Positions 1,604 to 48,367 of a stretch of 64,000 nt of DNA are shown here, piece by piece (position 1 is the stretch's first letter; every line of letters starts with the position of its first letter). The position numbers and the translations under genes were made by a program. The notes beneath the pieces are model-generated. The model ran no database searches and was not told the DNA's origin. It saw only the letters and a list, made by a program, of their open reading frames with translations. This stretch comes from Methanolobus vulcani (GTDB lineage: Archaea > Halobacteriota > Methanosarcinia > Methanosarcinales > Methanosarcinaceae): positions 186,001 to 250,000 of the forward strand of contig NZ_FNCA01000003.1 of the NCBI RefSeq assembly GCF_900100715.1. The letters are read 5' to 3'.

Positions 1604-3760
1604 ATGGATTTTAAAAAAATGAATATAAGAAATAGACTTCTCTTATACATCGTTACCAGTATTATTATACTGATGGCCATAAGCACCTATGTGACCGTTC
1701 AAAAAGTCACGGAACAGGAAACAACTATGGCCTTTTCTGAGGCTGAAAGCGTTGCCAAGAGCTATGCATATTACTACGATAGTGATATGCGATCTAATCA
1801 GATGCTGGCTCAGACCATGGCCACAACTATGGAAAACTATGATACAGGCAACAGGGATGAAGTAAATTCGATCCTTAAGAACCTGCTCGAAGAAAACCAG
1901 GGACTTCTGGGTACGTATGTTGCATACGAATCCAATGCATTCGATGGACAAGATTCGGAATATGTAAATGATCAGGGACATGACTCCACTGGAAGATTTA
2001 TTCCATACTGGAGCAGAATCGGTGGTTCTGTTGCTCTTGATCCGCTTGCAGGTTACGAAACAGATGATTATTACCAGCTTCCTAAAACTCTGAAACAGGA
2101 CGTTATACTTGAACCTTTCATGTATAACGGAGTAATGATGATAAGCTACGTTTCCCCGATAATCAAAGATGGAAGTTTTGTGGGAATCGCCGGTGTTGAC
2201 GTTTCTCTTAATTATATTGATGATGAGGTTTCAAAGGTCAGCATCTTTGATACGGGCTATGCATTCATGGTCAGTAACACAGGTCTGTTCATGTCCCATC
2301 CGACTGAAAAGAACTGGATAGGGACCAAGACCCTTGCAGATCTTAATGACCCTGAAATCAATAAAATGGCAGCAGACATCGCAAAAGGAATCAGTGGACG
2401 CATAGAGGTCACTGACCCGACAACTGGAAAAGATGTTGTAATGATATACAGTCCGGTCAAAACGGCTGATTTCGCATTTGTGCTGACAGTACCTAAGCAA
2501 GAAATGTTTGCAGGTGCAATGGAACTTAGAAATCAACTTATCGTTATCTCCATTATTGCCATTATCGCAATGGCCGGAATTGCGTATCTTATCGCACGTT
2601 CCATCACAAAACCTATAGAGAACATAGTTGATGACTTCGAAAAAATATCAACTGATGCGCTTGAAGGAAAGCTTAACAGAAAAGCAGAGACAAATGTAGG
2701 CATTGACTTTGAGGCGATACCCCGCGGACTCAATGAAATTATGCACACGATGACCGGCATTATCACTGATATTAGCAGGAACTCGAATGTTATTGCGAGC
2801 ACATCTGAACAGATGTCTGCTGCAATTGAGGAAGTTACTGCTACATCAGAAGACGTTTCAAGGACTGTCGGAGAAATTGCGTTAGGAGCAAATGAACAGT
2901 CAACTAAGACTGATGATATTTCCCGTGCAATGAGTGATATGTCACTCAGTGTTCAGGACATTGCTACAAATGCACAGATTTCTGCTGAAATTGCTATAGA
3001 GTCAAGTGAAAAGACAAAGGATGTCGGAAACAGGTCTGAAGAATTGATCAAACAGATGGAAGAGATCCAGAAGAGTTCTATGGAATCAGTCGATGCTATC
3101 AAGGGGCTTGAATCAAAATCCAAGATGATTGGTGAGATTGTAAGCCTTATTACCAATATTGCAGACCAGACAAACCTGCTTGCTCTTAATGCTGCTATTG
3201 AGGCTGCAAGGGCAGGAGAACATGGAAAAGGTTTTGCTGTTGTAGCTGATGAGGTTCGCAAACTCGCAGAAGAATCAGGAAATGCAGCAAGCCAGATATC
3301 TGATCTTATTAATGAGATCCAGATTGAGACAAATGTTGTGGTTGATTCAGTTGAGAAAGGAAATACCACCGTACATGAAGGTGTGACTGCACTCAATGAA
3401 ACTGTCAATGCCATGAGGGAGATCGTTGAGGGTTCAATAAAGGTTTCTGAAATGGTCCAGAATATTGCTGCTGCTGCACAGGAGCAGTCTGCCAGCATTG
3501 AGGAAATTACTGCTTCTATTGAAGATGTTACATCCATTTCCCAGGAAACGGCAGCAGGAACCGAGCAAACTTCTGCATCCGTTGAACAGCAGAACGCTTC
3601 CATGCACGAACTGGCGCAGAGCTCACAGGAACTTGCAGGTATGGCAGTTGCTATGCAGGAAATGGTCAGCAAGTTCGTACTTGACAGCGAAGAACAAGTG
3701 ATGCATGAAGATGCACCGAAGAACGCACCAAAATTTGAAGGAAATAAGAAGGGACTTTAA
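1604..3760 (+). CDS. Methyl-accepting chemotaxis protein with dCache sensor
   Basis: This 718-residue transducer has a short basic N-terminus, a membrane helix at about 12-30, an extracellular double-Cache-like sensor to about residue 305, a second helix at about 312-331, a HAMP linker and a long signalling coiled coil. The conserved hairpin tip ([19 protein letters not shown]) is near residue 525. It should control CheA activity in response to an extracellular ligand; the ligand is not evident. A GTG 45 bases upstream is in frame, but the ATG at 1604 has AAAGGA at a suitable distance and gives a normal N-terminus. No che genes lie nearby, so it is an orphan receptor in this window. Confidence 0.93.
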
Positions 3761-47501: not shown

Positions 47502-47806
47502 AAACGTATACCTGCCTAAATAGCTAAGTTTAAATGTAGATTAGTTAGAGCTACGAAACACATTACCCATTTCCGCCATAGTTCTATTTTAATGTTACTG
47601 TTCAGAAAATAATAAAAATGAAAACAAATCAAAATAAGGAACATTATCAAAAACAGAAGAAACAATCTGAAAATAAAGAAAAATAAACTGTTGTATTCAT
47701 TATAAACTCAATACGGCAGGCAATGAAGAGGCAAATAATACATTTTATATGATGAAATCTAAAAATCTGTTCCTATTAATAAGTAGTATTAAGTATTATA
47801 AGACAA
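47502..47806. other. Promoter region of amt2 and upstream region of the candidate sRNA
   Basis: No ORF. The first part holds the minus-strand promoter of amt2, including a CGGAAATGGGTAATG block. The second part is AT-rich and leads into the candidate sRNA promoter. A TATA-like TATTAAGTATTATAAG block lies at 47787-47802. Confidence 0.45.
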
Positions 47807-47822
47807 TACATAGGATTCCGTT
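47807..47822. promoter_or_regulatory. 16-base nitrogen operator candidate at the sRNA promoter
   Basis: TACATAGGATTCCGTT is identical to the block at nifH (48276-48291). It overlaps the expected transcription start. It is the longest exact repeat found in the island's intergenic DNA. Confidence 0.6.
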
Positions 47823-47824
47823 AG

Positions 47825-48012
47825 TACCCTACAAGCATAGAACCTGCTTCCTAAAGCAATAAAAACGAAACGAAACACACATTCACCCTGTGATCATGAA
47901 AGACCTGCCATGAGAAAAATGTTCACAGGAAAATGGTACTAACTACCTCTATAAGTGACATATCCGTTCTGAACGCAGCTCCGGTTGGTCAGAACGGACA
48001 CTTTTCTTTTTT
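47825..48012 (+). ncRNA. Candidate nitrogen-regulated small RNA (possible sRNA154 counterpart)
   Basis: The region has a promoter motif shared with nifH, no ORF and three consecutive hairpins. Hairpin 1: TGCTT-CCTA-AAGCA (about 47845-47858). Hairpin 2: CCTGTGA (47887-47893) with TCACAGG (47923-47929), enclosing an inner TCATG/CATGA stem. Hairpin 3: TCCGTTCTGA (47963-47972) with TCAGAACGGA (47989-47998), a 10-bp stem with a 16-base loop, followed by CACTTTTCTTTTTT. A single-stranded CTACCTCT (about 47943-47950) could pair with Shine-Dalgarno sequences. Methanosarcina mazei sRNA154 is a known nitrogen-controlled RNA; homology here is not tested. 5' end is estimated. Confidence 0.65.
47963..48012 (+). 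terminator. Terminator hairpin of the candidate sRNA
   Basis: The 10-bp stem 47963-47972/47989-47998 followed by CACTTTTCTTTTTT is a strong factor-independent-like end. Its loop carries AACGCAGCTCC, also found in the nifH leader. Confidence 0.75.
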
Positions 48013-48275
48013 ATCCATAAAAAATATAATACAAAAAGAATACTGCCTTGACTCGTCAGTTAATAGCTTCCATTAAAATGGTCAGATTATACAGTATATA
48101 AGTGTTTGCCAAAATAGGACAAAAAACACGGATTTTGTCTGAGATTGATAAAAATTAATTACTTTGAGAATAAAACACTGAAGTTGGCAAATAAAGCAAC
48201 TTGATTCTGTTTTTCATTTTTGGTTAAAAAATAAACAAATGTAAATAAGCAATGATTTTATATATAGGAACATAG
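48013..48275. other. Region upstream of the nifH promoter
   Basis: No gene seen. The sequence is AT-rich. The nifH TATA box TTTTATATATAGG is at 48255-48268. A GGAA at 48267-48270 and TTCC at 48285-48288 face each other, 14 bases apart; methanogen NrpR operators have GGAA/TTCC halves but usually with a shorter spacer. Confidence 0.45.
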
Positions 48276-48291
48276 TACATAGGATTCCGTT
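48276..48291. promoter_or_regulatory. 16-base nitrogen operator candidate at nifH
   Basis: TACATAGGATTCCGTT starts about 17 bases after the TATA centre, where transcription should begin. It is identical to the block at 47807-47822 and flanked by GTAC on both sides (GTAC...GTAC), which adds dyad symmetry. NrpR is the obvious candidate binder. Confidence 0.6.
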
Positions 48292-48367
48292 GTACGTTAC
48301 GAAATAACGCAGCTCCAATAATTAACACAGTCGTACAACAAACACAACAAAAAAACACATCAAATAA

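Follow-up and report, generated by a model that had tools for sequence, protein, structure and literature searches.

Does the interval between the histidine kinase gene and nifH of Methanolobus vulcani encode a small regulatory RNA, and is such an RNA the counterpart of sRNA154 of Methanosarcina? sRNA154 is expressed only under nitrogen limitation, where it binds and stabilises the nifH, nrpA and glnA1 mRNAs and masks the ribosome-binding site of glnA2. The original prediction for this locus was a structured small RNA next to nif, possibly homologous to sRNA154. We followed it up in the 64-kb window (contig 10, positions 186001-250000, of the 2.95-Mb genome G000), in which nif is accompanied by genes for NrpR, a P-II protein and two ammonium transporters. 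Near the candidate the gene order is NrpR, AmtB, P-II protein, histidine kinase, second AmtB, nifH and two nif P-II proteins.

A conserved unit upstream of nifH

The predicted transcript (Table 1) lies on the same strand as nifH and about 370 nt upstream of it. It was delimited from blastn and covariance-model homologues, TATA spacing and synteny, with the 5' end placed to within +/-3 nt and the 3' end set at the T-run. Of the boundaries first proposed, 47825-48012, the end stands but the start does not: a start at 47825 omits seven bases and with them most of the 5' arm of the closing stem (half of the 9-bp stem). The first base of sRNA154 is 2 nt before the G of GTT (from sORF nt 4-66 and the start of RF02906), and by this analogy and the TATA spacing the 5' end should therefore lie near 47818. 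This position agrees with the dRNA-seq paper on M. psychrophilus, which places promoters about 19-22 nt away from transcription starts and makes no mention of nif.

Table 1. Predicted features of the small RNA (sRNA), its promoter and the nifH leader, in window coordinates
Feature	Position	Strand	Remarks
TATA-like box ATTAAGTA	47788..47795	+	24 nt before GTT
Promoter/operator-like block ACATAGGATTCCGTT	47808..47822	+	15 bp; genome-wide, common only to sRNA and nifH
Predicted sRNA transcript	47818..48012	+	about 190 nt
Closing stem, 5' arm GUUAGUACC	47820..47828	+	9 bp; predicted folds
Closing stem, 3' arm GGUACUAAC	47935..47943	+	9 bp; predicted folds
Hairpin 1, UGCUU/AAGCA	47845..47858	+	5 bp, 47845-49/47854-58; beside invariant AGCAUAGAACCUGCUU
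Hairpin 2, CCUGUGA/UCACAGG with inner UCAUG/CAUGA	47887..47929	+	7+5 bp, 47887-93/47923-29 and 47894-98/47909-13
Conserved segment CUACCUCU	47943..47956	+	weak hairpin, anti-Shine-Dalgarno-like
Segment AGCAUAGAACCUGC			sRNA segment named alongside CCUCU
3' terminal hairpin	47963..47998	+	10 bp, 47963-72/47989-98; compensatory changes between species
Loop element AACGCAGCUCC	47972..47982	+	identical to nifH leader loop
T-run TTTTCTTTTTT	48002..48012	+	presumed terminator
Promoter block, second copy	48277..48291	+	before nifH; identical to 47808-47822
nifH leader hairpin GUUGUACG/CGUACAAC	48289..48339	+	AACGCAGCUCC in loop; conserved in Methanolobus

A blastn search of 112 genomes of the family identified copies of full or almost full length in G062, G046, G063 and G061 (78-86% identity), whereas G039 has the 3' part only. 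Mean pairwise identity fell from 0.78 in the 5' domain to 0.52 in the 3' part; in the flanks it was 0.28 (upstream) and 0.43 (downstream). A covariance model of the sRNA core scored 134-152 bits on the five carriers and found nothing convincing elsewhere; those weak Methanosarcina matches of the first covariance-model search of the family that were inspected resemble coding or chance sequence. Searching the 1.5 kb upstream of nifH with nhmmer in all 24 nif-bearing genomes yielded no further copies. Since a copy is undetectable in 18 of these 24 Methanolobus genomes, the sRNA must be dispensable for fixation. Where present it sits in the histidine kinase-nifH interval, even in G063, where the second AmtB is absent. 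In G039, which lacks both the second AmtB and the 5' half of the sRNA, the 3' half lies directly behind the kinase gene (L170 2531-2651), its CAGCUCC hairpin intact. In the nifH tree the non-carriers G043 and G058 fall among the five carriers, a distribution that, with mixed support, fits inheritance with losses.

Promoter and predicted structure

The promoter block that the sRNA was predicted to share with nifH proved to be an identical 15-mer, and at up to one mismatch the whole 2.95-Mb genome contains only these two sites (chance expectation by our own estimate, about 0.3). The sRNA promoter sequence is ACATAGGATTCCGTTAGTACC, and its offset from TATA-like box to GTT recurs in most Methanolobus nifH promoters and in most of the sRNA154 promoters examined. 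The operator letters differ from those of sRNA154, the promoter of which carries the NrpR operator GGTA-N6-TACC (PMC3177094); this motif is present in the Methanosarcina locus L088 and was not found in the sRNA promoter. Other near-matches of the block in G039 and G061 were not accompanied by a second sRNA copy. Given a nif-type promoter of its own, the sRNA would be expected to be repressed by NrpR with ammonium and co-produced with nitrogenase under nitrogen limitation; its activation probably coincides with that of nitrogenase, and the promoter common with nifH predicts expression when nitrogen is limiting. Upstream of nifH there is also a second conserved element (48044-48110: TTGCCTTGAC, about 45 nt, then TATATAAG-GTTTGCC), present in about 18 of the 24 nif-bearing Methanolobus genomes independently of the sRNA; this element may serve as an activator site or as an additional promoter.

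All three hairpins of the original prediction were recovered, with stems of 5, 7+5 and 10 bp, as was the T-run behind the last of them. The minimum free energy (MFE) of the sRNA is -44.1 kcal/mol compared with -29.8 +/- 3.5 for 200 shuffles (z = -4.1), every one of which it beats. With folds started at 47820, the closing stem appears in the MFE structures of all five full copies; G046 shows a change from U-A to C-G, and in G061 the stem is kept through a shifted partner. Across these five sequences, 90% of cells pair under the named structure, a share that drops to 31-43% once the structure is slid along the alignment. Four pairs changed on both sides, a value reached by 117 of 500 shuffles, and we attribute this failure of covariation to exceed the shuffles to there being only five full homologues. 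The structure is therefore plausible and conserved, with covariation proof absent. Conservation, promoter sharing and structure together support a structured, nif-linked small RNA, and we consider it very likely that the locus is an sRNA co-regulated with nif.

Candidate pairing partners and the loop shared with the nifH leader

For the starts of nifH and nifI1, the best conserved pairing with the sRNA was no better than that obtained with column-shuffled sRNAs (for nifH, 30 of 40 shuffled sequences were as good), and restricted interaction scans revealed no preferred nif target. Among translation starts in the window, the top score belongs to the divergent AmtB, where AGGCAGGU lies opposite ACCUGCC (47509-47517 and 47902-47910); in the other homologues this ACCUGCC is replaced by CCAGC.

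The 3' hairpin carries the loop of the nifH leader. In both G000 and G062, AACGCAGCTCC has exactly two copies, one in the sRNA and one in the nifH leader. ACGCAGCTCC has three copies in the genome: one at each of these two places and one in a gene reading as a chemoreceptor. The leader loop shows (G)CAGCUCC in most Methanolobus species, with or without the sRNA. The sRNA loop is AATGCAGCTCC in G061, and its copy is degraded in G046 (CAGCCCC) and G063 (CAGCAAC). Both RNAs have the same promoter block, and the leader hairpin shares with the sRNA a GUU..GUAC 5' arm as well as the loop; the leader, however, is part of an mRNA, spans 51 nt and holds the loop within its 5' stem, whereas in the sRNA the loop belongs to a separate 3' hairpin. 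This 5'-terminal leader hairpin of Methanolobus itself shows compensatory changes, and Methanosarcina nifH leaders instead begin with a tight hairpin of the GGUUACCGG-CCGGUAGCC type.

Loop sharing suggests that one factor may read both the sRNA and the nifH leader, and antisense action on nifH or nifI1 is less well supported than a factor common to both loops. One version of this idea, which we regard as speculative and rather doubtful, makes the sRNA a mimic of the nifH leader: by presenting the same loop, its 3' hairpin would titrate away a protein, nuclease or RNA whose usual site of action is the 5' hairpin of nifH.

Relation to sRNA154 and competing interpretations

The covariance search against sRNA154 that had been proposed for this locus was run with both the Rfam model RF02906 and our own 17-sequence model, and leaves homology unsupported. 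RF02906 gave no match in the window at the gathering threshold, at this locus (L002) at E<=1, or in the homologues at E<=5; as controls it scored 164.8 bits on L088 and 88.5 bits on L120, from the sister genus. Our model found all five positive controls (91-135 bits), and its best score in 27 Methanolobus genomes, 20.7 bits (E 0.27), was not significant. The reverse search between sRNA and sRNA154 was likewise without a match. The real sRNA154 gene was located through printed primers (PMC11549558), of which the first, used as a pattern, found no gene and the second did; in L088 it carries GGTAGTAAGATACC and a readable 20-codon TTG frame. sRNA154 occurs in 17 Methanosarcina-like and two sister-genus genomes, and in none of Methanolobus. 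Because neither model matched significantly, we place the two RNAs, alike in layout, in separate families.

The sRNA and sRNA154 of Methanosarcina mazei both belong to archaeal Methanosarcinaceae, have a regulated promoter of nif type in which TATA lies 24 nt ahead of GTT, have a closing stem that starts with GUU and surrounds hairpins and open loops, and have an expected role under nitrogen limitation. The agreement is limited to promoter geometry and closing-stem layout. The closing stem has 9 bp here (five MFE folds) compared with 11 bp in sRNA154; the predicted length is about 190 nt rather than about 130-134 nt, with additional CU-rich and 3' terminal hairpins; and the Methanolobus sRNA lies beside nifH, sRNA154 near a PYLIS element. 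In L088 this element (PYLIS_1, 2916-3015) is about 1.2 kb downstream of sRNA154, and L120 has the same pair. An orthologue of sRNA154 that diverged past recognition and moved to the nif locus would account for the common promoter geometry, the GUU start of the stem and the occupation of separate genera by the two RNAs; moreover, when 4 kb of the window were searched with filters off, our sRNA154 model matched best at exactly 47817-47943. That match, though, reaches only 6.6 bits (E 1.1) and was not reproduced in the four homologues, and to the failed RF02906 and reverse searches are added about 60 nt of extra length, different operator letters and neighbours, and the lack of the 20-codon sORF, so we judge true orthology improbable. 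NfiS and NfiR of Pseudomonas stutzeri (PMC6606865, PMC6755748) resemble the sRNA in being tied to nitrogen fixation, but these bacterial RNAs work with nif mRNAs under a different kind of regulation, and no relation is expected.

Three further interpretations differ in what the RNA would do. It was originally proposed that an exposed CCUCU could pair with ribosome sites such as that of nifI1, and a plain anti-Shine-Dalgarno repressor would mask the site of this or other mRNAs. The 7 bp with AGAGGUG of nifI1 do exist within the window, and CUACCUCU is near-invariant in the five homologues and kept in G039; yet the pairing is generic, nifI1 ranking only 10th among 57 translation starts in the window, behind better-scoring genes, and nearly all 24 species, whether or not they carry the sRNA, use GAGGTG as the nifI1 Shine-Dalgarno. 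The segment also resembles the 16S tail, and we think such a repressor unlikely. Strand and proximity would also allow the RNA to be the start of a long nif leader or attenuator running into nifH, but the 3' hairpin is followed by a T-run, a separate promoter copy serves nifH, and the gap to nifH widens to about 4 kb in G063 and about 1 kb in G046, which makes a cis-acting role very improbable. Scarcely credible, finally, is a small mRNA or dual-function RNA as proposed for sRNA154, which has a translated leaderless 20-codon sORF at nt 4-66 (PMC11456600). A frame of this kind, readable in L088, is absent at the 5' end of the sRNA, and no ORF of at least 60 aa covers the unit, in line with the lack of an ORF originally noted. 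The only widely common short frame, the 10-codon MRK-FTGKWY in four of five copies, has no Shine-Dalgarno; since its differences mainly alter amino acids and it is frameshifted in G061, we read it as not coding.

Our best reading is thus a new family analogous to sRNA154, with a function of known kind and a predicted expression. It would be a non-coding regulatory RNA, stand-alone and about 190 nt long, confined to a subclade of Methanolobus and equipped with its own nif-type promoter. Its 5' end would be locked by the homologue-supported closing stem around two hairpins and single-stranded segments, followed by the CU-rich anti-Shine-Dalgarno-like hairpin and the 3' hairpin that copies the nifH leader loop. 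Acting in trans and post-transcriptionally on nitrogen metabolism, in the manner of sRNA154, it may pair with mRNAs through its conserved open segments, while the 3' hairpin may engage whatever recognises the nifH leader. We lean somewhat towards this explanation as a whole, a stand-alone trans-acting RNA co-regulated with nif; the specific mechanism, mRNA pairing in trans combined with a 3' hairpin engaging the reader of the nifH leader, is put forward tentatively.

The sharing of the loop points to a factor that recognises the beginning of the nitrogenase mRNA, for which the loop offers a short bait sequence. Were the mimic interpretation true, the RNA would represent a decoy sRNA in an archaeon, co-transcribed with the very mRNA under its protection. 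Small RNA control of nitrogen fixation in archaea rests on one well-studied case, sRNA154. If a neighbouring genus has a second, unrelated sRNA under a nif promoter, methanogens would seem to have recruited riboregulators for nif on more than one occasion.
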